Shown here piece after piece: positions 5,550-26,600 of a stretch of 38,180 nucleotides of DNA. The notes under the pieces are model-generated. The model did no database searches and was not told the origin of the DNA. It saw nothing but the letters and a program-made list of their open reading frames with translations. A program made the position numbers and the translations under genes. The DNA comes from Bacillota bacterium (GTDB taxonomy: Bacteria > Bacillota > Clostridia > Caldicoprobacterales > DTU083), in NCBI GenBank assembly GCA_029549985.1, contig JAKPIB010000040.1:1-38180 (forward strand), given 5' to 3'. How positions within the stretch are numbered: position 1 is the stretch's first letter; each line of letters starts with the position of its first letter.

Positions 5550-6560
5550 ATGAAGAAAGTCCTGGTAGTCCTTTTGTCAGTCTTACTGGCTGTGCTCATA
5601 GGGACTGGCATATATATTTACCGACTGCTTGACATGGTCCAGGAAAAGCCTGTGGTGAATCCTGATACCGGCAATCCCATAGAAGACCCGTCAGATATAG
5701 GGATAGGCCCTGGAGCGCCGAACTCCAATGAGACGGGTGTGATAAACATCATGCTCTTTGGCACCGACAACCGGCACAGAAACGAGCAAAGCAGATCGGA
5801 CAGCATGATGATAGCCAGTATCGATAAGAAGAACAAGACCGTCAAGGTAACCTCTCTTATGAGGGATATGTATGTTCCCATCCCCGGCAAAAAAGACAAC
5901 AGGATAAATACTGCCTATATATTCGGCGGACCTTCCCTGGCCTTGAAAACGGTTAACACCAACTTCAACATGGACATAACGGACTATATCTCCGTAGACT
6001 TCTTTTCACTGGAGATGATAATAGATGAGGTCGGGGGCGTCCCCATCGATGTCAAGCAGAAGGAAATCAAGCACATAAACAAATTTATCAAGGAGCTTGA
6101 TAAAATACACAAGGACGGCAAAAAGACCCCCCTTTTGACTGAGCCCGGCCTTCAGGTCCTGTCCGGCAGGCAGGCTGTATCCTACTGCCGCATACGTTCC
6201 GTAGGCAACGGCGACTTTGACCGTACCGCACGCCAGCGGAAAGTGCTGGACGAGCTCTTTAAAAAAGGGAAGCAAATGGGCGTCTCCAGGATACCCGGCC
6301 TGGTAGCAAAGATCCTGCCCGAGGTCGAAACCAGCCTGAGCAAGACCGAGATAATCGATCTGGCTATAGCCATGATAGGCTTCAGCACCAGCGAGATCGA
6401 ACAGTTCAGGCTGCCTGCCAACGGGGCATATACCGATCAAACGATCAACGGCATGATGGTCCTGGTGCCCGACATGGAGAAAAATAAGCAGCTCCTGCAT
6501 GAGTTCATATACGGGAAGGATGAGGTCGAACCCTCACCCTCTGTATCCCCTGAAAATTGA
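5550..6560 (+). CDS. LytR-CpsA-Psr (LCP) family glycopolymer ligase
   Basis: This 336-residue protein has an N-terminal membrane anchor (residues 3-26) and an extracytoplasmic LCP domain. Motifs include MLFGTDNRH, RSDSMMIASI, TSLMRDMYVPIPG, RINTAYIFGG and RSVGNGDFDRTARQRKV, which holds the arginines that bind the polyprenyl pyrophosphate. LCP enzymes move phosphate-linked glycopolymers from lipid carriers to peptidoglycan or to proteins. The ATG at 5550 follows GGAGG, and a clear promoter lies upstream. Its last 27 bases overlap the end of the convergent cotH gene. The short Ser/Pro tail has no recognised role. Confidence 0.93.
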   Translation: MKKVLVVLLSVLLAVLIGTGIYIYRLLDMVQEKPVVNPDTGNPIEDPSDIGIGPGAPNSNETGVINIMLFGTDNRHRNEQSRSDSMMIASIDKKNKTVKVTSLMRDMYVPIPGKKDNRINTAYIFGGPSLALKTVNTNFNMDITDYISVDFFSLEMIIDEVGGVPIDVKQKEIKHINKFIKELDKIHKDGKKTPLLTEPGLQVLSGRQAVSYCRIRSVGNGDFDRTARQRKVLDELFKKGKQMGVSRIPGLVAKILPEVETSLSKTEIIDLAIAMIGFSTSEIEQFRLPANGAYTDQTINGMMVLVPDMEKNKQLLHEFIYGKDEVEPSPSVSPEN

Positions 6561-9131
6561 TCTCCTGAAGAAGGGCATCTGCCTTAAGAGGGCATAAAGA
6601 GTCAACAGGGCAGATAGGGTCATTAGGACGATCACAGCGCCTGAGACTATAGCTCTTGCAGGCGACACAGGAACAAAGGCGGCTGCGATATACAGGTCTC
6701 CGTCAAGGGTCAGGATCAAGGTATCCCTTGCAGAGTCCAAACCGTCATCAGCCGGGCCGCCCGAAAGTAAGGTCCATCCCGCGAACCTGTAGCTAGGATA
6801 GGGGTGGGCGCTGACAGTTATAGGAACACCGGTGAAATACTCCCCGGTCCAGCTTGCTTCGTCAAGCACGCCGGGGGTATTTTTATTTATGTCAAGGGAA
6901 TTGACCCGTATATAACCGCCTTTGGGATCCTCGTTCACTGCCGTGACTGTCGCCGTTTCACCAAGGCCGAACATGCCGGCAAGGTGCTGTTTGAGGAATG
7001 CAGGCCGCTCTCTGGCAAAATCCCGCAGCACTTCTACATTATCAAGCCACCTGTCCCTGGACCTGCCAAGCAGGTTCCACCTATCAAGGTGCTCTTGTAT
7101 GACAGTGGCGATAAGGGCAGACTGCCTGTCTATCTCCGTCAGCACTACATCGGTCCTGAAGGTGGAGTTCAGATGGTCCATGAACCGGTTTACCAGCTCA
7201 GTCCTGAAGCTTTCATTTTCAAGCAGGCCCCGGATGATCATGCCGGGCCATTCCTCTCCGTTTTTCGGGTTGAACCGGGCGGTCGCCCATTCCAGGGCAT
7301 TGAAGCTGACGTCCCGGTCAAGGCCGAATCCAAGGTCCGTGTCAAACAGCATCCATCTCCACCGCCCGTCAAGATACGGCGATGTCCTGCTGTCCCCTTC
7401 TTCCCCCTTGTACCTCCAGAGCCTGATGTTGTTATGGGGCCAGTCGGTGTTGTTGCAGTAAACATTGGCGATGAAATAGTCGAGATAGTTGCCCGTGTCT
7501 ATCAGGCTCTCCAGATAGACATAATTTTCGGCGTCCGCCAAATCGTGGCTTCTGATGAAATCCATCATATCGAAATATGCCTGTTCATCCCCTGGCGAGC
7601 CCTCCGACAGGACGCCGTTGTCTTCCAGGATCACGACCCTGTTCGGGTCGGCATTGTAGTGGTTTTCAAGATAGAACCGGTCCTGTCTTTGCTGGATGAT
7701 GTGGATACCCCAGAATTCACCGTTTATAAAGACTACGGCCGGCCTGCCGCCCTGGGTGGCAATGTCCGTATGGGCAGTGAGCGCCTGCATAAGGCTGTCC
7801 CTAAGCATCGTATTTACCCAGTCGTTGCCGGAGTTCCTGAGCACAAGCCTTTTGAATTCGGTTATGGGAGCCCTGGTAGCGCTGGCTGTGAGCCCCTTGA
7901 ATATTTCATGGGCGAATGTGCTTTTTGGATCATATTGAGCGCCTGCATACAGCCTGAGGCTTTTTTGCGGGTAGGCGCTAGTCCTTCCGCCGTGTATGCG
8001 CAGCCCTGCGTTTTGTGAGATGACCTGCGCGCCTCCGGGTTCGAAAAACTCCACATAAACGGGCCGTTCCCAGTCATCCCCGTTCTGGTGATAGTTGGCA
8101 GGAGTATTCATCCCGATGATGGCCCTGGGGTTTTTGAGCCTCCAGCTTTCAAACACTGCTCCGGGCACATAGATACCCTTTTCCTTGTCAAAAAGGTTGT
8201 CAGGATCCGTAATCAGGGATATTACCGGCAGACTGTACCTTTTGTCAGCTTCGGGGGCTACAAAGTAGGTCCGGGTCGCTGTTTCCCCGGGGCCGGTGCC
8301 TGCCTTGAACACCCTGGCCCTGACTACCGTACCCTTGAAGGAGGGGGCGTCTGAAACAGGCCATGAGGGCAAGGATGTCTGTATATCCCTGTAGAGGTTT
8401 GGCTCACCCTCCCTGTCCCTTATCATGATCGGTCCCGTGTATAAAGGAGAGGACTCGTCAGGCTCGCTCCCGTCTAAAGTGTACCGGATCACAGCATCCT
8501 TTTCGGTAGTTGAGAGCTCAAGCAAAAACTCTTTAGCATAAAAGCCGCTGTCATGGGAGAATGAAGGCGGCTCCGGTACAGACTCACATACGATGCCGCC
8601 TGCGTTGCCGGTGCCCGGAGTGGATGAACTGAAATAGACAAGAGTCCGGGACCCGTCAGTTATACGGCCGTAGGAAACATTGGACCGCATCTCCGCAGGA
8701 TACAGCCTGTCCACTATCTTCCCGTTAGTGTCCGCCAGCACGACATCCTCGCCGAGGGTACTTAGCCTGAAGCTGGTATGAAGCTGTCCGCCCGGGCTCC
8801 TTCGGTCCTTTCCCGATGCAAAGACAAGCAGATGGCCCTTGCCCTCGATCAGCGTGCCCTCAGGGAACTGCCACTTGAGAATGTCCACGCTGTCCGACAG
8901 ATACCAGCCGGAAAGGTCGACAGGCTTGCTTCCGTCATTGTAAAGCTCTATCCAGTCATGATATTCCCCATCCTCATCTGCTGCGGCACTGTCGTTGGCC
9001 GCCATTATTTCATTGATCCGGATCAGCCCTAACGCAGACAGGCCCCGGGAATAATGATATTCAAGATACCCAAGGCCAAGGGCCAGGGATATCAACAAAA
9101 CTGCAAGGAGTATAACTATGACCTGCTTCAT
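6534..9131 (-). CDS. Membrane-anchored CotH kinase family protein with lamin-tail and chitobiase-like domains
   Basis: Reading from the ATG at 9131, which has a strong AGGAGG site, the protein has 865 residues. An upstream in-frame ATG at 9173 lies within the previous gene and lacks a site. Order of parts: N-terminal membrane helix (1-22), lamin-tail domain (about 37-150), chitobiase/hexosaminidase C-terminal-like beta domain (about 195-290), CotH kinase domain (about 300-710), a beta domain (735-820), and a C-terminal helix (824-850) with a basic tail. The CotH domain shows LRIHGGR, NDWVNTMLRDSL, NNIRLW and the catalytic-type DTDLGFG at 597-603. CotH of Bacillus phosphorylates spore coat protein CotB. 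Here the two membrane helices suggest an envelope substrate instead. The gene is last in the operon DUF4956-VTC-cotH. Confidence 0.93.
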   Translation of the reverse strand: MKQVIVILLAVLLISLALGLGYLEYHYSRGLSALGLIRINEIMAANDSAAADEDGEYHDWIELYNDGSKPVDLSGWYLSDSVDILKWQFPEGTLIEGKGHLLVFASGKDRRSPGGQLHTSFRLSTLGEDVVLADTNGKIVDRLYPAEMRSNVSYGRITDGSRTLVYFSSSTPGTGNAGGIVCESVPEPPSFSHDSGFYAKEFLLELSTTEKDAVIRYTLDGSEPDESSPLYTGPIMIRDREGEPNLYRDIQTSLPSWPVSDAPSFKGTVVRARVFKAGTGPGETATRTYFVAPEADKRYSLPVISLITDPDNLFDKEKGIYVPGAVFESWRLKNPRAIIGMNTPANYHQNGDDWERPVYVEFFEPGGAQVISQNAGLRIHGGRTSAYPQKSLRLYAGAQYDPKSTFAHEIFKGLTASATRAPITEFKRLVLRNSGNDWVNTMLRDSLMQALTAHTDIATQGGRPAVVFINGEFWGIHIIQQRQDRFYLENHYNADPNRVVILEDNGVLSEGSPGDEQAYFDMMDFIRSHDLADAENYVYLESLIDTGNYLDYFIANVYCNNTDWPHNNIRLWRYKGEEGDSRTSPYLDGRWRWMLFDTDLGFGLDRDVSFNALEWATARFNPKNGEEWPGMIIRGLLENESFRTELVNRFMDHLNSTFRTDVVLTEIDRQSALIATVIQEHLDRWNLLGRSRDRWLDNVEVLRDFARERPAFLKQHLAGMFGLGETATVTAVNEDPKGGYIRVNSLDINKNTPGVLDEASWTGEYFTGVPITVSAHPYPSYRFAGWTLLSGGPADDGLDSARDTLILTLDGDLYIAAAFVPVSPARAIVSGAVIVLMTLSALLTLYALLRQMPFFRRSIFRGYRG

Positions 9132-9165
9132 GGCACTCCTCCTAGTGCGGCGGGATATGCCCCTT

Positions 9166-9942
9166 CTATGCATTATGGGCTATATTGGCGCTGAGCTGGC
9201 TGTGGAAATCTGCCTGTGGCAGCCATAAGCCGGATGCCTTCACTTCATAGCCTGATGCTTCGATGCTCTGCGCATACTTGCTGTTTGATACGGCCTTAAG
9301 CCCCAGCTTCTTTACCAGGCGGTAAAGCCAGCCCGGCTCATCCTGGCCTGTCTTGATCTCGAACACTACCGTACCAGGGCTGTGCTCCTTGAAAAAGAGG
9401 CCCTCCTGGAACAGGCAGCGGCCCGCAGCGCTCCTGACGCCATGGTCCATGGTCAGCCTCAGGCCTGACCCGTCTATAGCTTCAAACCCCTGCCTGCGGT
9501 ATTCCACGATGGTTTTGGGGCGAAAAGCCTTTAGAAGCACCAGCCGCTCAAACTCTGTAAAAACCTCGCCTGACGCCCCGGCCCAATGCCAGGAATCCAT
9601 GAACTCCCTGTACTCGGCCAGGGTAACGAAGGTACTGTATTTTAACATGGCGTTACCGGACTTTGTCTTCAACTCAACGGACAGCCTTGCCGATTCATCT
9701 GGCTGATCCGTATATGTCCTGATCCTGAGCTTCACCCTGCCATAATCTCCGTCATCCTTTTCCCTGTATGCCAGGTACCCAAAGGTATCGAAATACAGGC
9801 TGCGGACAAAGTAGCCCTTTTCATGGCCTGACAGCCTGGTGTACCTGTCCTCCCGAACATAGGGCGTTATGGCATGGAGCACCTGGTAATACTGCTTTAT
9901 GTCCAGCTTGTATTTTAGCTCAAGCCGCGTTACTACTCTCAT
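9166..9942 (-). CDS. VTC domain polyphosphate polymerase-like protein
   Basis: This 258-residue protein is a stand-alone VTC domain of the triphosphate tunnel type. Charged strand motifs that line the tunnel are visible: TRLELKYKL, RSLYFDTFGYLAYREK, GRVKLRIRTY, SVELKTKSGN, TIVEYRRQGFEA and VVFEIKTG, then SNSKYAQSIEA. In yeast Vtc4 this fold makes polyphosphate from ATP. Bacterial versions are annotated as polyphosphate polymerases, but their product is mostly untested. There is no signal peptide, so it should act on the cytoplasmic side, probably with the membrane protein encoded nine bases upstream. The ATG at 9942 follows AGAGG. Confidence 0.92.
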   Translation of the reverse strand: MRVVTRLELKYKLDIKQYYQVLHAITPYVREDRYTRLSGHEKGYFVRSLYFDTFGYLAYREKDDGDYGRVKLRIRTYTDQPDESARLSVELKTKSGNAMLKYSTFVTLAEYREFMDSWHWAGASGEVFTEFERLVLLKAFRPKTIVEYRRQGFEAIDGSGLRLTMDHGVRSAAGRCLFQEGLFFKEHSPGTVVFEIKTGQDEPGWLYRLVKKLGLKAVSNSKYAQSIEASGYEVKASGLWLPQADFHSQLSANIAHNA

Positions 9943-9951
9943 GTCGAACCT

Positions 9952-10626
9952 CTACACCGGAAGGGCAAGCTGGGGTGCCAGGAGCGATACCTTTTTGACA
10001 CCGTCGAGCCTGTTTATATCCTCAACGAGTCCCTTTGCCAGGTCGGCCTTAGGCGCCTGCAGCTCGTACACGGTCTCCCACCTGTCCTCTTCTGCCTGAT
10101 GCGACCTTATCCGGGCATACACCTGGTATGACCTGAGCACGTTTTCGATCTCCGATGTCAGGCTGCTGCCCCGGCCTGATACTACCAGTACGAATTCACC
10201 CTGGAGGGGTATCCGGTACCTGAGCAGGAAGGCAACCATGACGACCAGCGATATGGCAAGGGTCGCAGCGATCGTTACCGTCCAGTTGTAGGTGCCACAG
10301 CCCAGACCAACCCCTATTGCCCAGAACAGGAATACCATGTCCCTGCTGTCCTTGATAGGGGTGCGGAACCTTATGATGGACAAGGAACCAACTAGCCCAA
10401 GGGAAAGCACAAGGTTGCCCTGGATGAAGAACATGACCATGGTGACGATGGGCGCGATCACCAGCATGGTGACCAATAAGGAAGGCTCATAGCTCATGCC
10501 CCTGTGGGTAGCCTTATATACGACTGCTATAAAGGCTGACAGCGCAACAGAGAACAAGATAGACACCAGAAGGTTCAATAGCTGCTGGCCGGGTACCATC
10601 AGGTATCCAATAATAACATCCCACAT
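9952..10626 (-). CDS. DUF4956 domain multi-pass membrane protein
   Basis: About 224 residues with four or so membrane helices in the first 135 residues (15-37, 48-68, 70-82 with 97-112, 114-135), followed by a soluble domain of about 85 residues. The family signature SIIRFRTPIKD lies at 83-93 between helices. The function is unknown, but the family is repeatedly found beside VTC and CotH genes. A cytoplasmic C-terminal domain could regulate or dock the VTC protein; this is inference. The ATG at 10626 is chosen for its GGAGG site; an ATG ten codons earlier has none. It is first in the three-gene operon. Confidence 0.88.
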   Translation of the reverse strand: MWDVIIGYLMVPGQQLLNLLVSILFSVALSAFIAVVYKATHRGMSYEPSLLVTMLVIAPIVTMVMFFIQGNLVLSLGLVGSLSIIRFRTPIKDSRDMVFLFWAIGVGLGCGTYNWTVTIAATLAISLVVMVAFLLRYRIPLQGEFVLVVSGRGSSLTSEIENVLRSYQVYARIRSHQAEEDRWETVYELQAPKADLAKGLVEDINRLDGVKKVSLLAPQLALPV

Positions 10627-10775: not shown

Positions 10776-13682
10776 CTATTGCAGTTTGATATAGTCCGAA
10801 TGTACATAGCCGGTAGTGCTGCCATATTTGATTTTGTACCACTTGCCGCTGACTCCCGTGATCGTCACTGTCTTATTGCGCTGGAGCTGGCCCACTCTGC
10901 TGTAATCGGTGCCTGGGCCGGAGCGGACATTCAGCACACTGGCGGTCACTATACCGGTAAGCTGGTCAGACCCCTGGTCTCCCCTGCTTGTACCAGACTG
11001 GGTTACGGTGAGATATTGGGCCGATACATAACGCTCCTGCCCGTTATACAATACCTTGTACCAGTCGCCGCTCTTGCCGGTTATGGTCAGCTTGGTCCCC
11101 TTCTGCACCAGGCCTACGCTTGCATAATTGGTGCCCGGGCCCGTGCGCACATTGAGGGGGCCTGCGTTGACCGTACCCGTCTGTGTCGTCTGGGGCGCAT
11201 CTTCCTTTGGAGCCTGGGATACGGTGAGGTACTGGGCTGATACATAGCGCTCTTTCCCGTTGTACAGGACCTTGTACCAGTCACCGCTCTTGCCGGTTAT
11301 GGTCAGCTTGGTCCCCTTCTGGACCAGGCCGACGCTGCTGTAGCTGGTGCCTGGACCCGTGCGGACATTGAGGGGGCCTGCATTGACCGTACCTGTCGAT
11401 AGAGTTACGTCTAACAGTTTTACATAATCGGAGTGAACATAATTTACCTTGCCGTTGTATTCTATAGAGTACCAGTCACCGGTCTTGCCAAGTATGATAA
11501 GCCTTGTGTCCTTTTCGACCATGCCGACCGAGTGGTTCTTCGTGCTGGGACCGCTGCGGACATTCAGCTTGCTTGCCGTTACATAGCCCAGCTTCCTTGT
11601 ATCCGTATTCGGCGGGGGAGCAGGATCTACAGGCGGCGGGCTCGGGGGATCCGGGACCGGCGCAGGTGCCGGATCCGGCTTGGGCGAGACTGCCGGTGTG
11701 ATGTAGTCCTTGTGTACATACCCTGTGGTATTGTTCGTCTTTATCTTGTACCAGGTGCCCGATTCGCCCGTGATCTGTACCACAGCGCCTCTTTTGAGCT
11801 GCAATATTACAGCATACTCTGTGCCGGGGCCCTTGCGGACATTAAGGACACTCGCGTTGACCGTGCCCGAGCTTGGCAGAGGCGTAGGTGTCGGCTTGGG
11901 TGTAGGTGTTGGTGTTGGCTTAGGCGTCGGCGATGGTGTCGGCTTGGGCGTAGGTGACGGAGTAGGCGTAGGTTTAGCCGTAGGCGTAGGAGTAGGCGCC
12001 GATGTAGGCTTGGCTGTCGGCGACTGAGTTGGCGCCTGGGTCGGCTGTACCGTTGGCTCCGCCGTTGGGGCTGCGGTGGGTGAAGCTGTAGGAGATGCAG
12101 TCTCCGTGGGTTCAGGATCTACCGTCGGCTCTCCAGATGCATCAGGTGAGGGTGAAGCGGACGGGTCCTGGCTCGCTTCAGGCGAAGCTGAAGGTGTCGG
12201 GTCGCTTCCCTGGTCCGGATCTTCCGGCGGGGTCCCGTACAACAGCGTCAACTGGGTAGTCGGATAATAGAATTCCAGGATCTCAGTGTAATTGAAGCCT
12301 TCCCTTGCCATCTGCTGGGCGCCGTACTGGCTCATGCCTACTCCATGGCCCCAGCCTCCTCCGTTGAGCACATAGGCATCGCCTCTGTCTTCAAGGGAGA
12401 CAAGGAGGCTGTACAGGTTCAGCACGCTTCTGGCGTTGTTTTTATTAAAGTTTATGGTTTCTTCGATGGTATCATATGTGCTGATAACATTCAGCTCGGT
12501 GCCCTTTGGCACAAGCCCGATGCTCTCATACTGTGTGCCCGGGCCCTTCCTGATATTGAGCTGCTCGGTCTTGACTGTCCCGAGGATGCCCCCATCGGGC
12601 ATCTTCACGCTGGGGTTCAGGGTGACAAGCCAGCTGGCTACATAGTATTCGCCGCCCTGGTAACTGATCTTGTACCACTGCGAAGTCAGGTGCCTTGCAT
12701 TGACTTCTACGGTGATGTAGCCCTTGTCTATCCTGCCGCTCTCGTTCGGGGGCTCGAAGAATAGCTTCTTTATGCTTAGGATGATGATATCCGAATCTTC
12801 GGTGCTATAGCCCTTCGAGCTCAGCGATGATTTCATGCGCTGTCTCAGCCGGTTCTGAAGGTTACTGTCCACAGGGGATTTGTAGTATGTAACCGTCCAT
12901 CTTGCCCTGGTATTGGAAGTATTCCTTACATCGTAGGGATCGTCTTTTACCACGGAATAGGGCAGGTCTTCGACGAATATGTTCTTGGAGGCCTCGGTCT
13001 TGCCGCCGTTGCTGGCGGAGTAGAAAGTACCGACAAACTTGCCCTTGTACATCAGGACCTGGCCCCTGGTCTCGTCAACTGCCCTGATGCATTTGTCATA
13101 TATGGGGTCATAGCCTTCATAGACCTGGCTGTCCTGGGTGTCATACACATCATAGTATGAGCTTGAACGCCTGGCCCTGGCGGCATAGGTCCTGGCTGCG
13201 ACCGCTTGGGCTTTCAGGGCTTCCAGCGGCCAGCTGTTGGACATCTCGAACGGCAACACCCCATACAGGTAGGTCTCCATGTCTATATGGTTCACCAGTC
13301 TGATGCCGCCGTTTGCGGTCCTGACCTCCATATCCCCTCTGTAGTTTTTCCAGCCGTAGGACTTGTTGTAGATCCTCAGGTGGCCGTCCTCCCGCTTGAA
13401 CATGAAGGGGCTGGACAAAGTATATGTGCTGCTGCCGTTTTTAAGCTGCAGCTTCCCGCTGGCAAGGGCTATCGTATACTTGATGCCGCTTTCCAGCTTG
13501 ATGTCCGGATAGCCTTCAATGGTGTAGCTGCCGTTAACATATAGATCTATAGAAGTGGGGGCCCCCATCGATGTCAACGCAACGCGGATCATGCTGTAAT
13601 CTATGCTTGCGTAAGCAGGTTTTACCCACACAAAGTTGAAAGCTACCAGCAGGCTCAATAAAACCGCTAAAAATCTCCGCAT
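10776..13682 (-). CDS. Secreted SpoIID/LytB-domain protein with six SH3b repeats and a Pro/Thr linker
   Basis: This 968-residue protein has a signal peptide (1-25, cleavage after AYA). The SpoIID domain spans about 115-480, with [20 protein letters not shown] holding the likely catalytic E146 and [16 protein letters not shown] at 440-454. SpoIID is a lytic transglycosylase of the engulfment machinery; homologues of this kind also act in vegetative walls. One SH3b unit (367-405) lies inside the SpoIID domain. A Pro/Thr/Ser linker (about 490-605) leads to five SH3b repeats (606-662, 699-756, 763-820, 836-893, 910-967) that should bind the wall. The size, absence of a membrane anchor and SH3 array set it apart from true SpoIID. 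The ATG at 13682 follows AAAGGCGGTGG. It is probably a single-gene unit. Confidence 0.92.
11004..11396 (-). repeat. Nearly identical tandem SH3b repeat units 3 and 4
   Basis: Units at 11223-11396 and 11004-11177 encode 58-residue SH3b domains that differ at only three residues, and the DNA is also highly alike. This points to a recent internal duplication and makes the locus prone to repeat-number change and to assembly collapse. Units 1, 2 and 5 are much more diverged. Confidence 0.85.
11874..12191 (-). repeat. Low-complexity Pro-Thr/Pro-Ser repeat tract
   Basis: The stretch encodes about 100 residues built from [10 protein letters not shown] and PTAxPT units, a typical cell-wall spacer. 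On the plus strand it reads as GGCGTAGGTGTC-like repeats. It is a linker within the SpoIID-domain gene and not a separate gene or CRISPR. Confidence 0.85.
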
Positions 13683-16506: not shown

Positions 16507-17121
16507 TTAGGCTCCTGCCTTTTTCTTTACCATTTTGAGCCTGAAGAAATCCTCCCTGTCCTTTTCCTCTAGCTGGTCCTGTATGAGCTTCACCAGGTCC
16601 CTGTACCTGGGTATCTGGATGTTTTCCAGGGCATTGGTCCGCTTTCGGGTCTTCTTGATCTCATTGGCCAGTTTGTAAATGGAGGTCTCGATCTCCGCAA
16701 GCTCGAAAAGCAGCAGCTTCACCTTGTGGAAGCTTACAAGAGCGGCATCTATCGCAGCGTTGGTATGAAAAAAGCTGTAGTGGGGCTCCGGATCCTCCTT
16801 GGCATACCGGACCTCCGGGATCTCTACGCCCATGACGCTCCTGAACCTCACATTGAAGTCCGTTTCCTCCGGGACCGACAGGGCAATGTTCTCCACTTCG
16901 CTTATGCCAAGGGTGATATTGGCCATCTGGAGGGCCCGGTAGGCCTCCTCGAAGGAGGAATCGATCCGCTCCTGGATGTCCCTGGCCTTGTCTACCAGCC
17001 CCATCATCTCACGGATCAGTACGTTGCGCTTCCTGTCAAGCAGCTCAAAGGCCTTTTTCGAAAGCTCCAGGGAAACCTGTGCGCTCATCAGATTAGCTTT
17101 TGTAGGCGTGCTGTCAGCCAT
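16507..17121 (-). CDS. atpD: V/A-type ATPase subunit D (central rotor stalk)
   Basis: The 204-residue protein is a long helical hairpin typical of subunit D. N-terminal PTKANLMSAQVSLELSKKAF and C-terminal KKTRKRTNALENIQIPRYRD are conserved. It forms the central shaft that couples rotation in V1 to the membrane ring. The ATG at 17121 is preferred because AGGAAG lies eight bases upstream; the GTG at 17130 lies against that site. The start is six bases before the end of atpB on the map, so the genes nearly abut. It is the last gene of the operon, followed by a terminator. Confidence 0.95.
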   Translation of the reverse strand: MADSTPTKANLMSAQVSLELSKKAFELLDRKRNVLIREMMGLVDKARDIQERIDSSFEEAYRALQMANITLGISEVENIALSVPEETDFNVRFRSVMGVEIPEVRYAKEDPEPHYSFFHTNAAIDAALVSFHKVKLLLFELAEIETSIYKLANEIKKTRKRTNALENIQIPRYRDLVKLIQDQLEEKDREDFFRLKMVKKKAGA

Positions 17122-17126
17122 ATGCT

Positions 17127-18503
17127 TCACTTCCTGCCGTATTTCCTGTAGATCTCAGGGGAGATCCGGTCGAGCTCCTCCTGAGGCATTATGGACAACA
17201 GGTGCCAGCCCAGATCAAGGGTCTGGGTTATGTCCCTGTTTTCATTGAAGCCCTGCTTTATGAGCCGTTCCTCGAACTGCCGGCCGAATTCCAGGTACCT
17301 GGCGTCCGTATCGGACAGGGAATCCTCACCGATGACCTGGGCCAGGTCTCGGACCTCCCTGACCCTGGAATAGGTCGAGAAGATCTGATTGGCCAGATCC
17401 GGATGGTCCTCGCGGGTATAGCCCTTGCCTATGCCGTCCTTCATCAGGCGGGACAGGGACGGGAGCACATCCACGGGTGGATATATGTTGTTCTGGTAGA
17501 TATCCCTGCTCAATACTATCTGCCCCTCGGTGATATAGCCGGTCAGGTCCGGTACGGGATGGGTGATGTCGTCATTGGGCATGGTGAGTATGGGTATCTG
17601 GGTTATGGAGCCCTTCCTGCCCTTCATCATGCCGGCCCTTTCGTACAGGCTGGCAAGGTCGGAATACAGGTATCCCGGGTACCCCTTCCGGCTCGGCACC
17701 TCCTCCCTGGATGCCGATATCTCCCGCAGGGCCTCGCAATAACTGGTCATGTCGGTCAATATCACCAGGATATGCATGCCATGCTCAAAGGCCAGGTATT
17801 CCGCTGCAGTCAGGGCACACCTCGGAGTGGTGATCCTTTCGACTATCGGATCATCCGCCAGATTGATATACATGACAACCCGCTCCAGCACCCCGGACTC
17901 CTCAAAGCTCCTTATAAAGAAATCCGCCTCATCGTGCCTGACGCCCATGGCCGCAAATACTATGGCAAAATCGCTGCCCTCCTCGGAAGCGATCCTGGCC
18001 TGCCTTACTATCTGGACGGCAAGCTCATTGTGGGGCAGGCCGTTTCCCGAAAATATCGGCAGCTTTTGCCCTCTGATCAGGGTCAGGAGGAGGTCTATGG
18101 ATGATATGCCGGTCTGTATGAAATTCCTGGGATACTGCCTTGCGACAGGGTTGACCGGCCTGCCGTTTATATCCCCCCTGCTCGGACTGTATACTGCCCC
18201 GCCGCCGTCAATCGCTTCACCTATGCCATTGAAGGTCCTGCCCAGGATCTCTTTGGACAAGGGTATGGTAAGAGGCTTGCCCGTGAACCGGACGGATGTA
18301 TTGATGGATGACAGGCCTGTCGTACTGCCGAATACCTGGACGACCGCCTTGTCCTCGTCAAGCAGGACCACCCTGCCCTTCCTGCCGCTTTGGCCGTTGT
18401 CGGCATACAGCTCGACTATTTCGTCGTAGGCCGCATCCGATACCTCCGACAAGACTACGAAGGGCCCTTCTATCCTATCCAAACGGAGATATTCATTTCT
18501 CAC
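17127..18503 (-). CDS. atpB: V/A-type ATPase subunit B (non-catalytic)
   Basis: This 458-residue protein is the non-catalytic nucleotide-site subunit of the V1 hexamer. In place of a P-loop it has [10 protein letters not shown], the usual B-subunit sequence. [20 protein letters not shown] and [19 protein letters not shown] are also diagnostic. The start is a GTG at 18503 with AGAAGGTGA upstream. Unlike the other, nearly overlapping genes, it is separated from atpA by 216 bases with no recognised gene. A separate entry describes that spacer. Confidence 0.96.
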
Positions 18504-18719
18504 CTTGTCTCACCTTCTAAATATAGCGCTAAACGCCGGACTGCCCGCCGGTTCATTATCAACAGCCGTCTGCGGCATGCTCTGATCCTATGATCGAAAA
18601 TCACAGAGGCCTTATAGGGCATTACCTATCTATGGCCCCAGACCAACGCCATCAGTTAGTGCAGGCTGTTGTTGAGTCATTTGAAAAGACTTAGTGTAGT
18701 AGCCTTAGAGCCTGTTGAC
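18504..18719. other. Anomalous 216-base spacer between atpA and atpB
   Basis: All other junctions of this operon are short or overlap. This spacer has no minus-strand gene. It holds an 8-base inverted repeat (TTGAGTCA at 18672-18679 and TGACTCAA at 18716-18723, taking in the atpA stop) that could fold in the mRNA. A small plus-strand reading frame is described separately. It may be an insertion scar or a leader for atpB. Confidence 0.5.
18590..18694 (+). other. Short antisense reading frame in the atpA-atpB spacer
   Basis: A 34-codon frame starting at ATG 18590 encodes a protein-like tail with HYLSMAPDQRHQLVQAVVES near its end. The frame is open for about 20 further codons upstream of the ATG. 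No ribosome site precedes it and no family is recognised. It may be the remnant of an inserted gene or chance. Confidence 0.2.
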
Positions 18720-20489
18720 TCAAGCGTAAACTGCGTCCAGCTCATCATAGAACCTGTCTATCTCCCTGTTTATCCCGTCAAAGCCGCTCAGGTCATCGTT
18801 GGGGATGGTGTATTTCATCCTGAGGATCCTGTCAAACAGCTTGTCATCCCGTATCCTTGAGATGGGTATCCCCTTCCTGACGGCCTTGTAGGCCCTGCTG
18901 TACAGGTGGCTGATCGTCTTGAGCATCAGGTACTGCTTGCTCAAAGGCACATAGGTATCCTCACTGTGATACGCGTTCTGGCTCATAAAGCCATTTTTCA
19001 GGAGCCGGGCGATCTCCAGTATCAGCCTCTGGTCGTCGGGCAACACATCCTCACCGACAAGCTTTACGATCTCCAGAAGCTTTGTCTCCTCGTGCAGGAG
19101 CCTGAGCGCCTGGGCCCTCAGATCCACAACGTCCGAGGCTGCATTCTCCTTGTACCAGTCGGCCAGGCGGTCCATGTAGCCGCTGTAGCTCGACAGCCAG
19201 TTGATGGCCGGGAAATGGCGCGCATGGGCCAGCCTTCTGTCCAGGGCAAGGAATGCACCCACAAAGCGCTTGGTGTTCTGAGTCACAGGCTCTGAAAAAT
19301 CACCTCCGGGAGGTGAGACAGCACCGATGATCGTGACGGAGCCCTCCTGCCCGTTCAAGGTTTCCACCATGCCTGCCCGCTCATAAAACTCCGCCAGCCG
19401 CGTCGGAAGATATGCCGGGTAGCCCTCTTCCGCAGGCATTTCCTCAAGCCGTCCGGAGATCTCCCTCAGGGCTTCGGCCCACCTGGAGGTAGAGTCCGCC
19501 ATGATGGCCACATGGTAGCCCATGTCCCTGTAATACTCCGCCAGGGTTATGCCCGTATAGATGCTGGCCTCCCTGGCCGCGACCGGCATGTTGGATGTAT
19601 TGGCGATCAGGACTGTCCTTTCCATCAATGAACGCTTTGTCCTGGGATCGATAAGTGCCGGGAAGTCCTCCAGCACCTCCGTCATCTCGTTTCCCCGCTC
19701 ACCGCAGCCCACATACACGATGATATCGGCATCGGACCATTTCGCGAGCTGGTGCTGGGTCATGGTCTTTCCGGTGCCGAAGCCGCCCGGTATAGCCGCC
19801 GTACCGCCCTTGGCAATGGGGAAGAACATGTCCAGGATCCGCTGACCGGTTATAAGAGGCCGGTCGATAGGCTTCCGCTTCATCACCGGCCTGGGTGTCC
19901 GCACAGGCCATTCCTGCATCATCTTGAGCGGTACTTCCCTGCCGTTGTCATCTCTCAGGACCACCAGGACCTGGTTCAAATCGTAGCGCCCGTCAGGCAC
20001 CACTGAGACTACAGTCCCGCTTATGCCCGGCGGGACCATGAGCCTGTGCATGACCGAGCCTGTCTCCTGCACCTGTCCGAATACCTGCCCCGGGCCCAGC
20101 TTTTGCCCGGTGCTTACAAGCAGGCTGACCTCCCATTCCTTCTCTTCGTCGATGGATATAAGGCCGATCCCCTTGGGCAGATAGCCCGGCGACATGCGGT
20201 TTATCGCGTCAAGGGGCCGCTCGATGCCGTCGAATATACTGCCGATTATCCCAGGGCCGAGCCTGAGTGACAGCGGCCTTCCCGTGGATATTATCTCCTC
20301 GCCTATTTTAAGGCCTTCAGTCTCTTCATAGACCTGTATGGTCGCCTTGTCCCCGTCTATCGATATGACCTCGCCGATGAGCCTGTCCTTGCCGACCATG
20401 ACCATTTCCCTCATCCTGAAGGCTCTCATGTTTCTGCCTCTGATCACCGGGCCGTTTATCATAGAAATTATGCCCTTGTTCTCTGCCAT
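18720..20489 (-). CDS. atpA: V/A-type ATPase subunit A (catalytic)
   Basis: This 589-residue catalytic subunit has the P-loop GGFGTGKT at residues 235-242, the extra non-homologous region after the N-terminal barrel (about 110-200), and the [20 protein letters not shown] and [18 protein letters not shown] segments. It hydrolyses or makes ATP at the A/B interface of V1. The ATG at 20489 has AGGTGG eight bases upstream; GTG codons earlier in the frame fall within that site. It starts 12 bases after atpE ends. Confidence 0.97.
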
Positions 20490-20501
20490 TCGTGACACCA
20501 C

Positions 20502-21122
20502 CTAAATATGCAAATACTCCGTTACGGTCTGCCCGATTATCTCCCTGCCGTCCTCCAGGAGGGATGCAAGGGTGTGCTCAGCCTTCCTGGTGCCCTTGCC
20601 GTTAACGCAGATGCAGCCCCCCTGGATCCCGTCGTCCGCCTCAAGCAGCGTATATGCAGCATCCGGTACGTCACTGCCCAGGCACCGCCTGATAAGGTCC
20701 TGATGGGCCTTGAGGTCCCGGGAAGTGAAATAAAGCCTTAGCTCCTTCTCGCCCTTCATGCTGCCAGCTGCCTGGTATATGGACTTTTCAAGAAAGGCGG
20801 CATAGGCCCCGGTCCCCGCAAAGGTATCAGCCAGGACTCTAAGGTCGGCTATGGTCCTCTCCAGCAGTTCATTGCGTTTGGCCAAAAGCTTTTGCTTTGA
20901 TTCCTGCTTTGCCTTCGATATTATCCGGGTATACTCCGCCTGGGCTTTTATTGCACTCTCCTCGATGATAAGGGCACATTCCTCGTCAATGCTCTGCTTT
21001 TCGGCCGCCATCTTTTCGTCTATGCTGCGAAAAGCCTTATCGACCTTCTCTGCAGATTCCTTTTCGGCCTTATCCAGCACGATCCCGGCAAACAGGTTCA
21101 GTTTATCCTCAATAGTGATCAT
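20502..21122 (-). CDS. atpE: V/A-type ATPase subunit E (peripheral stalk)
   Basis: The protein has about 206 residues. The N-terminal half is a charged coiled coil rich in Lys, Glu and Ala (residues 15-95), and the C-terminal globular part includes ADDGIQGGCICVNG. That is the layout of subunit E, which pairs with the G/H subunit to form the stator stalk linking V1 to subunit I. The ATG at 21122 has GAGGTG seven bases upstream; a TTG two codons earlier is an alternative. Sequence identity is low, as usual for E, so the call rests partly on operon position. Confidence 0.9.
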   Translation of the reverse strand: MITIEDKLNLFAGIVLDKAEKESAEKVDKAFRSIDEKMAAEKQSIDEECALIIEESAIKAQAEYTRIISKAKQESKQKLLAKRNELLERTIADLRVLADTFAGTGAYAAFLEKSIYQAAGSMKGEKELRLYFTSRDLKAHQDLIRRCLGSDVPDAAYTLLEADDGIQGGCICVNGKGTRKAEHTLASLLEDGREIIGQTVTEYLHI

Positions 21123-21133
21123 AATCAAGCACC

Positions 21134-21442
21134 TCAGATCTCCAAGCCGATGGCTTCCCTTATATAACGGGTGATACGGTCCACGCCCTTCCGTGACCCG
21201 TGCCTGTCGGGTATCTCCACTATCAGCGGAAGGGAGGTCTTTAATTTCATGGCATTGAGCTCTTCCCCGACAAGCTGCGACAGCTTTTCGGTTATGACTA
21301 TGATGCCTGTCTCTCTGTCATCAGCTGCCGCTTTCAGCGCATCCAGCACTTCCTCCCGCTCATGGGCCACCACGCCTTTGACGCCTGCCAGGCGCATGCC
21401 CACAAGGGTATCCACATTGTCGCTTATCAGGAAAAGCTTCAT
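21134..21442 (-). CDS. atpF: V/A-type ATPase subunit F
   Basis: The 102-residue protein has the Rossmann-like fold of subunit F. MKLFLISDNVDTLVGMRLAG is a typical start and GIIVITEKLSQLVGEELN is the conserved middle. F binds the central shaft with D and modulates coupling. Its ATG at 21442 comes one base before the stop of the ring-subunit gene, so translation is probably coupled. Length is normal. Confidence 0.93.
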   Translation of the reverse strand: MKLFLISDNVDTLVGMRLAGVKGVVAHEREEVLDALKAAADDRETGIIVITEKLSQLVGEELNAMKLKTSLPLIVEIPDRHGSRKGVDRITRYIREAIGLEI

Positions 21443-21443
21443 A

Positions 21444-21866
21444 TCACAGCGCTCCCAGGATCATAATAGAAATTATGAGGCCATATATGGCGATACCTTC
21501 GGCCAGGCCGACGAAAATCAGGGTCTTGCCAAGGAGCGAGGGGTCCTCTGAAACAGCACCCAGGGCTGATGATGCCACAGAGCCTACCGCGTAGCCTGCA
21601 CCGATGGTCGCAAGCCCGGTTGACAAGGCTGCAGCTATGAAGCCAAGGCCGTTGCCGCCTGATGCACCTGCCGTCTCGGCAGCGCTCGCCATATCAGGGA
21701 TCAGCATGATCACTGCCCCGGCCATGATCGGGACAAAGGCCGACAGGTTGAGCTTCAATGCCTTCTTTGTAGTAAGCCTGCCTAAAGAACCTTTGAATCT
21801 GATCACGAGACCCGCCGCGGTCGTTAGTACAACAACACAGACTGCTGCAATCAACAATAAGTACAT
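21444..21866 (-). CDS. V/A-type ATPase subunit K (membrane rotor ring)
   Basis: This 140-residue proteolipid has the c-type hairpin in its second half. The first helix is IAAALSTGLATIGAGYAVGS. The second is LIFVGLAEGIAIYGLIISIM, with E123 as the ion-binding carboxylate. Residues 1-68 add two hydrophobic segments (4-22 and 42-60) that lack an equivalent carboxylate. Whether the ring carries protons or sodium cannot be settled from these residues. The ATG at 21866 has AGGAGGT at good spacing. Confidence 0.94.
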   Translation of the reverse strand: MYLLLIAAVCVVVLTTAAGLVIRFKGSLGRLTTKKALKLNLSAFVPIMAGAVIMLIPDMASAAETAGASGGNGLGFIAAALSTGLATIGAGYAVGSVASSALGAVSEDPSLLGKTLIFVGLAEGIAIYGLIISIMILGAL

Positions 21867-21898
21867 GTTCCTACCTCCTGAAGAATTAAACTTAAGGT

Positions 21899-23902
21899 TT
21901 ATAATGCCGCCTTGCGGCCGGCAAACGGCCTGCGCTTCAGCCTGTACCCCAGCCTGACCGGTTCATAGGGTACGCCTGAGCCCTCGTAGTACTTGCTGAA
22001 CAGTTCATAGTATTCGAGCCTTAAGCCCTGTATGAATACGATCAGGCCTTCCAGGCCGATGATGACAAGGTTGCCTATGATCAGGATCAAGACCCCCGAG
22101 GCATTATGGATCATCTCCGACATGGTGAGGAAGGCTATGAACAGACCAACATGGTTCAGCGCAAAGGCCCCCACCCTTATGAAGGAGATGGTATTGCTCA
22201 GCATGCTGAGTATGGTCTCAAGGATGCCAAAGCCGCTTTCGATATAATAATCCGAAACCTTTTCATCATGCAGGGGCGTCTTTCTCCTGATAAGGTTGGC
22301 CAGGGGCTCCTTTACGACCGTCACCCCCAGGAGCACTGCCAGTACGGCGATGACTGCCGGCAGCGGCACCGGCAGGGTGCCATTCAGCGCATACATAAGC
22401 ACGGTCGTAATGAGTATCCAGTAGAACAAAAGCCCCGCCAGGCCATTCTGGCCGAACAGGCCGTCCTTGAGGTCCCTGCGCCTTATGGCATTTGCCAGGT
22501 TGTATATATATGCCGTCGTCAACAGGACAACGCCCAGGGCGATCGCCCCTATCAGCATGGCGTTTATATCCTCCATAGGCCTGACCAGAAGGGCCGGGAT
22601 CACTTCCTCAAAGCCAAATACGCTGCCGTACAGGGCACCAAATACCATTGAGCTCAAGCCCAGCCTTGAGAGCACGCCCCCAAGCGCTGACCTGTGCCTT
22701 ACCCTGCTCAGATACAGGCCTGCCAGAAGAAATATCAGCCCCTGCCCCAGGTCACCGAACATGGCCCCAAACAAGACCATATAGCTTATGCCCACAAAGG
22801 CGGTGGGGTCGAGCTCGTTGTAGGAGGGTATGCCGTACATGGCCACAAGGGCCTCAAAGGGCCTTATGAAAACAGGGTTTCTAAGCTTTGTCGGGGGTGT
22901 GATCCTTTTGCCGACGGTTTCTGCCGCCTTGTAATGGATCTGGGTCCGGCTCGTCACCGGCTCAAGCCTTTTCTCCAGCTCTGCCTTTTTCCGGGCAGGG
23001 ATCCATCCGGCCAAATAAAAAAACTCCGTGCTCAGGGCAGCGTCCCTTTTTACAACTTCCATCTTTTCATATACCTTCACATGGCTGTATGACCTCAGGA
23101 CCTCGTCACCGTATTCGGACTTGAGATTTTCGATCCGGTCCCTCAGCCCGGCCATTTCAGCCTCAAGGCCTTGTATTTCTCCCGTCAGCCTTTCCGTTAT
23201 CTCCCGGGGCGTACCTGAATAGTCCTCGGGCACATCAAGCTTCTTGAAGCTTAATGAGTTGAATATCCTGTCAAGCTCCACCTTGAGCGATTTTGGCGCT
23301 ATGGAGATGACCACGACCCTGTCCGGCAGGGTGTCGACCTTGTACAGGACAGCAGGTATATCCGAATAGTTGTTCTTGAGCTTGACTGCGTTGTCCTTCG
23401 GCATCATGCCGATGCTGAAATCGAAATACTCCATGCCTGTGAGGTCTTCCCAGCGGATATCGATGTCTTTCATATAGGTGAAGTATTTGTGCAGCTTGCG
23501 CTTGTTCTCCAGAGTCTTATCAAGCCCGGCCATTTCATCCCTTATGGCCTGGAGCCTTTGGTACATGCCCGCAACCTTGTCTGAGGTCAGGGCAAAGTCG
23601 AAATCCTCCTCAGCGTACTCAGGCAGGACGGCCTTTTCCAGGTCAAAGGCCTCCATCAGGGTCTCGGCCTGATGAGCTACCTCCGCAATGCGGACATCCC
23701 TGGGGTAAGGCCTGATGAAGTTTACATCTACCAGGGCATCCATGTTCAGCTCTGAAGCCGATATAGTAAAATTGTTGTTGTCTATCTCATGCATGGCGTT
23801 GACCATGTGGATGCATCCGAGCAGGACAAGCTCCCTGGATATGAAATCCATATCGCTTATCTGCCCTATGAGGTTGAGCATTTCCATCCGTTCGACTGCC
23901 AA
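21899..23902 (-). CDS. atpI: V/A-type ATPase subunit I (membrane stator)
   Basis: This 667-residue protein has a cytoplasmic N-terminal half with coiled coils (about 85-110 and 240-290) and a C-terminal membrane half of seven or so helices. It holds LFGAMFGDLGQGLIFLLAG, GSVFGFEEVIPAL and SNTISFIRVGAFALNHVGL, the last being the ion-path helix with its essential arginine. It anchors the peripheral stalks and forms the ion half-channels. The start is TTG at 23902, supported by AAGGAGGGG eight bases upstream. It is a few bases after atpC. Confidence 0.96.
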   Translation of the reverse strand: MAVERMEMLNLIGQISDMDFISRELVLLGCIHMVNAMHEIDNNNFTISASELNMDALVDVNFIRPYPRDVRIAEVAHQAETLMEAFDLEKAVLPEYAEEDFDFALTSDKVAGMYQRLQAIRDEMAGLDKTLENKRKLHKYFTYMKDIDIRWEDLTGMEYFDFSIGMMPKDNAVKLKNNYSDIPAVLYKVDTLPDRVVVISIAPKSLKVELDRIFNSLSFKKLDVPEDYSGTPREITERLTGEIQGLEAEMAGLRDRIENLKSEYGDEVLRSYSHVKVYEKMEVVKRDAALSTEFFYLAGWIPARKKAELEKRLEPVTSRTQIHYKAAETVGKRITPPTKLRNPVFIRPFEALVAMYGIPSYNELDPTAFVGISYMVLFGAMFGDLGQGLIFLLAGLYLSRVRHRSALGGVLSRLGLSSMVFGALYGSVFGFEEVIPALLVRPMEDINAMLIGAIALGVVLLTTAYIYNLANAIRRRDLKDGLFGQNGLAGLLFYWILITTVLMYALNGTLPVPLPAVIAVLAVLLGVTVVKEPLANLIRRKTPLHDEKVSDYYIESGFGILETILSMLSNTISFIRVGAFALNHVGLFIAFLTMSEMIHNASGVLILIIGNLVIIGLEGLIVFIQGLRLEYYELFSKYYEGSGVPYEPVRLGYRLKRRPFAGRKAAL

Positions 23903-23929
23903 CGCACGTTCCCCTCCTTCCCGATCTGG

Positions 23930-24976
23930 CTACAGGCTGCGTATCAGGCAGCTCTTGATCCTTTCCGGGTCCTCGTTGTGATATCGTATATTTTCAACTA
24001 TTGTTATTATGTCCCTGATCTCTATCTCAAGCAGGTCGAAAAATATCACGGACTGGACTATGTCCATCCGGTTCATCCTGCGTATCTTGAGGAGCTTGTA
24101 ATACAGGTACCTGTTCATGCGCCGTTCCATGAATATGTCCCGGGTCTTTTTGTGGTCGAACAAGAAGTTGTACCTGGTGTTTCTCATCTTTTCCACAAGC
24201 TCGGCCTCATCCCTGCATTGGCAGAGCTCCTTCAGCCTGGCATGGCTCAAGCTGCCGTTGAAATCGAGGGTGTAGTTGAGCAGGATGTCCCCCGGCAGGC
24301 GGTAGAACTTTATGCCCCTGTAGATGAGCTGAAGGTTCAGCAGGTCTGCCCTCATGCCCTGGATCCTGATGATCATCTCCTGCTCGGCTGGAGTCAGCTT
24401 TTCCATATGGCGCTTGTATATGGCCGCATAGGCCAGGTCGAGGGCCATCTCCACCCTGAACTGGTTTTCGGTATTGTCCTTCAGGGTCAGGGGGTAAAGG
24501 TAAGGGTAGTAGGGGCTGCCCTTCAGGCTGTCCACCAGCTCGGAAAAGCTTTTTGAGGATATGAGCCGCTTAATGTCCAGGTCTCCATAGCGGCCGATAT
24601 ACACCAGGGAGCTGCCGGCCTCAGCGAGGTCCTGCCCGGTGAAAAGGGCCCTGATCAGCAGCTTCAGGTCCTCAACTTCAAACCGCATGTAAAGGACATT
24701 CAGGAACTTCCTGGCTTCATCCTTGAAATAGTGCCTGAGCCTCATCAGCAGGTCTACGGAGTAGCGCCTCAGGATGACCTCGAGCTCTCCGCGGTGGATG
24801 GCTTCCGCACTTACCCCTTCCAGGGCCTGCGAGTAATGGGTCTGCTTCAGGTACCTGGCTATGTCCGCTACAGAATCCATCGATATGAGCCTCATGTAAT
24901 CCTCGTTGCTCAAAAATAAGCCCAGAATGGCTCTGAGCTTAGTATTCACCGCAGCATAGCTGATCGCAGGACTCAT
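23930..24976 (-). CDS. atpC: V/A-type ATPase subunit C (rotor cap, subunit d homologue)
   Basis: This 348-residue helical protein matches subunit C of the bacterial V-ATPase, a funnel that joins the DF shaft to the membrane ring. Conserved stretches are LRHYFKDEARKFLNVLYMRF with EVEDLKLLIRA, and the C-terminal RMNRMDIVQSVIFFDLLEIE. Its ATG overlaps the stop of the upstream G/H gene by four bases. Length is typical. Confidence 0.92.
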   Translation of the reverse strand: MSPAISYAAVNTKLRAILGLFLSNEDYMRLISMDSVADIARYLKQTHYSQALEGVSAEAIHRGELEVILRRYSVDLLMRLRHYFKDEARKFLNVLYMRFEVEDLKLLIRALFTGQDLAEAGSSLVYIGRYGDLDIKRLISSKSFSELVDSLKGSPYYPYLYPLTLKDNTENQFRVEMALDLAYAAIYKRHMEKLTPAEQEMIIRIQGMRADLLNLQLIYRGIKFYRLPGDILLNYTLDFNGSLSHARLKELCQCRDEAELVEKMRNTRYNFLFDHKKTRDIFMERRMNRYLYYKLLKIRRMNRMDIVQSVIFFDLLEIEIRDIITIVENIRYHNEDPERIKSCLIRSL

Positions 24977-25382: not shown

Positions 25383-26600
25383 TTAATCCGCCAGTCGTTT
25401 TTCCCCTTTCAGCTCCTGGATCGGCCTGATGTTCTGGGTGACCTCCATGGTGCCCAGATACTCGCCCTTTTCATCACGTACAGCAAAATACCTTATGTAA
25501 ACGAACAAATCCCCCTTCTGGATCCAAAAATCCTCATGGTCCTTACGGCCGGACTTGAAGTCATCCAGCATTTTCTCCACTACATGGACACTGGCCGGCG
25601 GATGGCAGTTCTGAACCGTCCGCCCCAATACGGCCTTCGGACGGTGGAAGATCCTGTCCTTGCCCTGATCGAAGTACTTGACCACGTCATTTTTATCTAT
25701 AAAGGTTATGTCGATGGGCATGGTATTGAGCATAGCCTCAAGCTCTGTTACCGTAAGGGTGCCCGAATCGAACCTTACTGTACCTTTATCTACCCCGGGC
25801 TGCTCCGGCACGATCTTGTTTACGTCCACCCTTTCGGGCTTCCATTGGCCGGCAGGCCTTACGAAGGTGTAGCCTATCTCATCGCTTTGCTCTGCGATCC
25901 TGAGCCATTCATCCTCAGTCAGGATCTCCAGCGCCATCGGGATCAGTATGTTTTCTTCCTTGAAGATCATCTCCGTGACCTTGGTCAGCATGCTTTCGGC
26001 CGCAGCCGCCAGCTTTTCGCTGTCCTCCTCGCCGGCAAGCCTGGCCAGCACATGCTTTATATCCGCTCGTATCTCGTCATCAACGCCCCACATCACCTTC
26101 GGAGGCCCTGTTATATCATACTTCTCCAGGTAGGGGAACAGCAGGTTCTCCTTGCGGCTGTAGTGCTTATCCAGCTCCAGCAGCTTGCTCAGCTCCTCCT
26201 TGAGCGCCTTGCGGTTTTCTGCGCTCCCGTCCTGCTTCAGGGCTTCTAGCCTGGGCCGGATGCTGTTTTCAATGAGCCTTTCGACAGCCCGGTTCTCAAG
26301 CATCATCGTATGTGCGGGATGCCCGGGTATCTCATGAGCCTGGGCAGGCTTGTGTATGTCCTCTATTGAGCCCTTGAACACGGCAGCATGCACGTCGCAC
26401 AGCCGCTGGACCTCCTCCACGGGCAGGCCTTCCCGGATCAGGGCCTGCTCCATCTGCGAGATCTCAGATACGGATATGCCCTTTATGAGCTCCTGGAACC
26501 GCTGCTTGACCTCATCCACCGATCTGCCCTGGTGAAGCTCCATGATAAGCTCCTTCAGGACCCTTTGCCTGTGTTCCCTGTTGTCTATCAACTCACTCAT
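25383..26600 (-). CDS. DUF438 - hemerythrin - PAS domain protein
   Basis: This 405-residue soluble protein has an N-terminal DUF438 domain (about 12-80, IMELHQGRSVDEVKQRFQEL), a hemerythrin-like helical bundle (about 90-225) with iron-ligand-type residues in HPAHTMMLEN, LDKHYSRKENLLFPYLE and FKEENILIPMAL, and a C-terminal PAS fold (about 275-395). Such proteins are thought to sense oxygen, nitric oxide or redox state in anaerobes; the output is unknown. The ATG at 26600 follows CTGGAGGAAGG. It lies just upstream of the V-ATPase operon and could be part of a longer transcript. Confidence 0.9.
   Translation of the reverse strand: MSELIDNREHRQRVLKELIMELHQGRSVDEVKQRFQELIKGISVSEISQMEQALIREGLPVEEVQRLCDVHAAVFKGSIEDIHKPAQAHEIPGHPAHTMMLENRAVERLIENSIRPRLEALKQDGSAENRKALKEELSKLLELDKHYSRKENLLFPYLEKYDITGPPKVMWGVDDEIRADIKHVLARLAGEEDSEKLAAAAESMLTKVTEMIFKEENILIPMALEILTEDEWLRIAEQSDEIGYTFVRPAGQWKPERVDVNKIVPEQPGVDKGTVRFDSGTLTVTELEAMLNTMPIDITFIDKNDVVKYFDQGKDRIFHRPKAVLGRTVQNCHPPASVHVVEKMLDDFKSGRKDHEDFWIQKGDLFVYIRYFAVRDEKGEYLGTMEVTQNIRPIQELKGEKRLAD

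Follow-up and report, generated by a model that had tools for sequence, protein, structure and literature searches.

The window, which is the whole stretch of 38,180 nucleotides of DNA that was analysed, carries on its minus strand at 6534-10626 an operon transcribed in the order DUF4956, VTC and CotH. A sequence-only reading of this DNA had described three tightly packed genes encoding these domains, and this description is borne out by the open reading frames and the Pfam matches. The operon comprises the following:

9952-10626, minus strand: DUF4956 gene, 224 residues, encoding a predicted membrane protein of the MgtC superfamily, first gene of the operon (PF16316, E 4e-14)
9166-9942, minus strand: VTC-domain (triphosphate tunnel) gene, 258 residues, predicted polyphosphate polymerase (PF09359, E 2.5e-32)
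6534-9131, minus strand: CotH-kinase gene, 865 residues from the likelier start (ATG at 9131 after AGGAGG)
10713-10688, minus strand: strong terminator-like hairpin between the upstream SpoIID/SH3 gene and the operon

The DUF4956 gene starts with the ATG at 10626, has GGAGG upstream and is spaced 9 nucleotides from the VTC gene. The CotH open reading frame as listed opens at 9173, encodes 879 residues and overlaps the VTC gene by 8 nucleotides, but the ATG at 9131, with AGGAGG just upstream, is likelier to be the true start and would leave a gap of 34 nucleotides. The hairpin at 10713-10688 marks the operon off from the upstream SpoIID/SH3 gene. At the other end an LCP gene (5550-6560, plus strand) is convergent with the CotH gene and overlaps its 3' end by 27 nucleotides.

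A second operon with the same three families is encoded in the same genome (L008:3225-8002, contig C17), in a gene order different from that of the window operon:

L008, 7229-8002, minus strand: VTC
L008, 6530-7204, minus strand: DUF4956
L008, 3225-6533, minus strand: CotH

The CotH protein of this second operon has 1102 residues and is rich in repeats on its N-terminal side, where LTD-like stretches recur ahead of the kinase domain. The genome also encodes a third CotH-type protein (L009:11037-13157, contig C49), an exported protein with a C-terminal membrane helix, which is an orphan with neither VTC nor DUF4956 adjoining.

Among 149 genomes spread over Bacillota, DUF4956 has been identified in 20 and VTC in exactly the same 20, with 26 copies of each. 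CotH is encoded in 21 genomes, 18 of them common to the set of 20. The hypergeometric p for co-occurrence, uncorrected for phylogeny, is about 3e-25 for VTC with DUF4956 and 3e-18 for CotH; the grouping of VTC and DUF4956 is far beyond chance. A further survey took in 80 DUF4956 loci, two of which are archaeal, from named genomes belonging to many phyla. VTC is found in 77 of these loci and all three families in 60, and the intergenic distance between VTC and DUF4956 has a median of 11 nucleotides. Two of the three loci without VTC (L062 and L097) end close to DUF4956. The third belongs to Evansella caseinilytica (L056:8938-11741), in which a DUF4956-CotH pair has no adjoining VTC and the VTC gene is located on another contig. 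VTC is present in 3 of 14 control genomes and DUF4956 in those same 3, one of which lacks CotH. Corynebacterium glutamicum encodes all three families. The identical genome sets within the phylum and the joint occurrence in 77 of the loci indicate that the pairing of VTC with DUF4956 is near-obligate. The conserved co-occurrence that the sequence-only reading had put forward as a check is borne out by these counts. CotH is missing near the VTC-DUF4956 pair in 17 of the 80 loci; it is a frequent yet optional third member of the module and therefore cannot be the sole use of the pair. The mirror-tree correlations (0.59, 0.50 and 0.53) are positive but carry little weight, since they are uncorrected for species phylogeny.

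The PF16316 match of the window DUF4956 protein is limited to its membrane half. The AF2 model of the protein (pLDDT 84) has five membrane helices, the third of which is short, and a C-terminal domain of beta-alpha-beta-beta-alpha-beta arrangement. The regions recognised are:

10222-10590, minus strand: membrane core, residues 13-135, five helices (AF2 model, alignment and loop charges)
10363-10371, minus strand: invariant Arg-Phe-Arg, residues 86-88, at the cytosolic end of the third helix (alignment)
9976-10203, minus strand: ACT-like cytosolic domain, residues 142-217 (structural matches to ACT domains)

The C-terminal domain is matched by ACT domains, one of which is C-terminal in M. tuberculosis MgtC (2lqj), and the loop charges, with basic loops inside, place it on the cytosolic side. 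The structural matches cover the ACT part alone, the membrane core having no match to a solved fold, and comparison by sequence with solved structures gives no significant match. Alignment of the DUF4956 profile with that of 24 MgtC proteins using hhalign gives a probability of 98% (E 1.8e-13) over 192 columns that cover both halves, the reversed, column-shuffled and VTC controls reaching at most 5%. PF02308 is matched by 18 of 25 DUF4956 proteins at an E limit of 10 (best 1.9e-4); the window protein, with E 9.3, is short of the Pfam cut-off and falls outside the MgtC family proper. The profile match over both halves, taken with the ACT match, argues for DUF4956 as a distant branch of the MgtC superfamily that has predicted membrane helices and a cytosolic ACT-like domain. 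The label 'Tubulin/FtsZ' carried by C. perfringens proteins is rejected, no tubulin being among the 25 families listed for the 25 DUF4956 members.

The two partners have also been modelled as a single chain by in-frame read-through of the window DNA, with TAG read as Gln, the read-through serving purely as a linker. Both halves of this joined DUF4956-VTC model are well folded, but with a pTM of 0.55 their relative placement carries no confidence, and an oligomer is beyond the method. A natural DUF4956-VTC fusion has not been seen among the 80 loci.

The tunnel domain is the only Pfam domain of the 258-residue VTC protein, which has neither an SPX domain nor membrane helices of its own. A profile built from 22 bacterial VTC proteins finds yeast Vtc4 (3g3q) with an E-value of 4e-18. 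The predicted structure matches Vtc4 bound to an ATP analogue (3g3r) with a Z score of 21.1 over 228 residues and an rmsd of 2.9, other tunnel enzymes among the structural matches listed having Z scores of 15.2 or less. Positions invariant in all 22 bacterial proteins map to Vtc4 R196, K200, R264, R266, E279, K281 and K294, and further to R361, R373, D377, E426, K428, S457 and K458. R264, R266 and E426 are residues mutated for inactivating the yeast complex (PMC9911596), and K458 has been termed catalytic (PMC4641920). The single aligned tunnel position that differs is an invariant Glu8 in place of Thr198. With this exception the tunnel basic residues, the metal Glu and the catalytic Lys of Vtc4 are all retained in the bacterial proteins, and the assignment of a VTC tunnel in the earlier reading holds on both residues and fold.

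Neither PPK1 nor PPK2 has been detected in this genome, which is 96.7% complete. PPK1 is encoded in 8 of the 20 VTC genomes as against 14 of the 129 without VTC. The coexistence of both enzymes in those 8 genomes rules out VTC as a mere replacement of PPK1, and the supply of polyphosphate alone fails to explain the module.

The CotH protein has Pfam matches to the kinase domain PF08757 (E 7e-51), LTD (E 3e-18) and Fn3_assoc/CHB_HEX_C (E about 1e-12); a weak InlB-like repeat is below threshold. Its domain organisation, numbered on the frame of 879 residues, is as follows:

9063-9131, minus strand: N-terminal membrane anchor or signal (sequence)
8703-9032, minus strand: LTD domain, residues 48-157 of 879 (PF00932, E 3e-18)
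8265-8552, minus strand: Fn3-associated / CHB_HEX_C domain, residues 208-303 (PF13287, PF13290)
6993-8003, minus strand: CotH kinase domain, residues 391-727 (PF08757)
7443-7445 and 7341-7343, minus strand: predicted catalytic Asp577 and Asp611 (motif and alignment)
6585-6650, minus strand: C-terminal hydrophobic segment, probable second membrane helix (sequence)

The kinase domain matches the solved spore CotH (5jd9) with an E-value of 2e-31. Asp577 and Asp611 align by motif and spacing with D228 and D251, the catalytic residues of B. subtilis CotH (PMC7821199). The window protein has Gln495 at a position occupied by Glu in 57 of 75 sequences, so that kinase activity is more doubtful for this copy than for its sisters. 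An N-terminal hydrophobic segment is present in 58 of 60 near-full-length CotH proteins of the module, the other two starting at or near a contig end, whereas stand-alone CotH proteins of the spore type (n=3) begin directly with the kinase fold; this contrast indicates that the module employs an exported form of CotH. The C-terminal hydrophobic segment is found in 11 of the 60 relatives. Both catalytic aspartates are intact in the kinase domain, whose predicted location is outside the cell. The topology proposed earlier, with the VTC enzyme inside and the CotH kinase outside, is supported at the level of sequence by the loop charges of DUF4956 and the N-terminal segments of CotH.

Given that VTC, DUF4956 and CotH occur together across many phyla, phosphate chains may be built by bacteria at the membrane and put to use outside the cell. 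In yeast the isolated tunnel domain of VTC synthesises slowly, and synthesis is coupled to translocation via basic membrane helices (PMC9911596). This coupling of synthesis to a membrane path, considered with the near-obligate DUF4956 partner, suggests a similar coupling in bacteria, and we give close to an even chance to the reading in which VTC is an ATP-dependent polymerase and is coupled at the membrane to DUF4956. From its fold and residues, VTC would build a phosphate chain from the gamma-phosphate of ATP on the cytosolic side of the membrane. The ACT-like domain and the invariant Arg cluster of DUF4956 might dock or gate VTC, and DUF4956 would pass the chain through the membrane, as the membrane helices of Vtc1, Vtc3 and Vtc4 do in yeast. 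The CotH kinase domain, anchored outside where ATP is scarce, could then transfer phosphate to a surface protein or glycan, for which the exported chain would be the simplest donor, and the LTD and Fn3-associated domains would keep CotH attached to a polymer or surface. That exported polyphosphate is the phosphate donor of CotH is doubtful. The same doubt attaches to the general proposal that bacteria and archaea have a vectorial polyphosphate synthase, made of VTC and an MgtC-superfamily protein, whose exported polyphosphate and not ATP feeds an extracytoplasmic CotH that phosphorylates the surface.

We know of no MgtC protein that has been shown to carry polyphosphate, which counts against translocation. 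In the chief rival reading DUF4956 acts as an MgtC-like sensor or regulator and not as a channel: the ACT-like domain would sense a small ligand and switch VTC on at the membrane, the polyphosphate would stay in the cytosol, and CotH would be a separate but co-controlled surface protein. ACT domains are commonly binders of small ligands. This suits a regulator, as do the remote relationship of DUF4956 to MgtC over its full length and the existence of VTC-DUF4956 pairs without CotH. The known action of Salmonella MgtC is likewise on another complex, the F1Fo ATP synthase, which it binds and inhibits, and exopolysaccharide is affected (PMC4469704). A regulator, however, has no need of near-obligacy, and no clear VTC without DUF4956 has been found in the 149 genomes. 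The recurrence of an exported kinase adjoining the pair also suggests a link across the membrane. We regard regulation by DUF4956 as somewhat unlikely.

The VTC protein could also be a hydrolase or transferase of another triphosphate and not a polymerase. Tunnel enzymes catalyse many reactions, and in the tunnel hydrolases the chain-guiding basic residues of Vtc4 are replaced by four Glu (PMC4641920). The invariant Glu8, at the position of Vtc4 Thr198, resembles the second Glu of the CYTH ExExK motif. The bacterial proteins are nevertheless basic, as is Vtc4, at the two positions of the acidic patch that are readable against CYTH proteins (Arg6 and Lys197), with Lys101 probably marking a third, and the best fold match is Vtc4, which renders a non-polymerase improbable. 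About as improbable is an accessory or regulatory exopolysaccharide cassette, with polyphosphate incidental and CotH either phosphorylating a polysaccharide-synthesis or surface protein or simply binding it. In its favour, the same genes adjoin Pel operons of streptococci, clostridia and bifidobacteria (PMC7112168), HEAT, MBOAT/AlgX and glycosyltransferase genes follow the module in some related loci, and the presence of LTD and Fn3-associated domains points to binding of a surface or glycan. Against it, the window copy stands alone, no polysaccharide synthase adjoins it or many other copies, and VTC-DUF4956 pairs are found in very different neighbourhoods.

The proposed polymerase coupled to DUF4956 resembles the yeast VTC complex (Vtc4/Vtc3/Vtc1) in its tunnel polymerase fold and residues and in having a cytosolic enzyme with a dedicated membrane component. 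Unlike the yeast enzyme, bacterial VTC is devoid of an SPX domain and of its own membrane helices, the membrane partner is DUF4956 of the MgtC superfamily in place of the DUF202-type Vtc1, and an exported kinase is added. The three families also occur together as CotH-PPP-DUF4956(-DUF4832), described as accessory genes of Gram-positive Pel operons with a proposed regulatory role for CotH (Whitfield 2020, PMC7112168). The window module differs in standing by itself, no pelDEADAFG genes or DUF4832 having been found among the open reading frames scanned in the window, and in a CotH with LTD and Fn3-associated domains. The C. perfringens locus NELoc-2, reported in 2010, likewise clusters VTC, a membrane protein named tubulin/FtsZ (a candidate DUF4956 by position and size) and CotH (PMC2879425); it continues with a protein of no known function, a HEAT protein and a glycosyltransferase that the window operon lacks. 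A gene order resembling that of NELoc-2 is seen in L081:11161-14539, L052:11199-14397 and L107:11088-14467, where a protein of about 700 residues, with no significant Pfam match, and then a HEAT-repeat protein lie downstream of VTC-DUF4956-CotH. MgtC/SapB proteins (PF02308) share with DUF4956 a membrane core and an ACT-like C-terminal domain that align over the full length, but DUF4956 singly has no significant PF02308 match, has the invariant Arg-Phe-Arg and is tied to VTC. The Bacillus spore-coat CotH (5jd9) shares the kinase domain and catalytic aspartates with the window protein, and differs from it in lacking a signal; the window protein is anchored outside and has extra surface domains and Gln495 for the common Glu.

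The gene set itself is not new, being known beside Pel operons (2020) and in part from C. perfringens (2010). What appears new is the near-obligate pairing of VTC and DUF4956 across phyla, the MgtC relationship and the contrast in CotH export, none of which was found in the literature searched, which included few subscription journals or preprints; the DUF4956-MgtC link is likewise absent from the available part of the Pel-operon study (PMC7112168). The same literature yielded no functional experiment on VTC-DUF4956-CotH. DUF4956 gains a partner and a superfamily, and the function of an MgtC-type membrane protein becomes testable in a simple two-protein system. If true, the proposed mechanism would add to PPK1 and PPK2 a further bacterial route to polyphosphate, related in fold to yeast VTC, and it could account for the action of a kinase outside the cell in the absence of ATP.

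The neighbouring genes of the window have been considered as well. The sequence-only reading had linked the convergent LCP enzyme to the pathway, and this link finds no support: in only 3 of the 80 loci is there an LCP relative within 9 kb, and in none of them does it adjoin the module. The SpoIID/SH3, DsbD and TlpA neighbours are rejected as members of the module, relatives of these being absent from the 80 loci. The product of the SpoIID/SH3 gene (10776-13682) has a SpoIID/LytB domain, a linker rich in Pro and Thr, and six bacterial SH3 domains. An operon for a V/A-type ATPase (subunits D, B, A, E, I and C) is located at 16507-24976; yeast VTC relies on the V-ATPase. A DUF438-hemerythrin-PAS protein is encoded at 25383-26600, with an open frame of 291 residues inside it on the opposite strand. 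The region 29445-32606 encodes a protein of 1053 residues, the C-terminal half of which is similar to protein O-mannosyltransferases (PMT).
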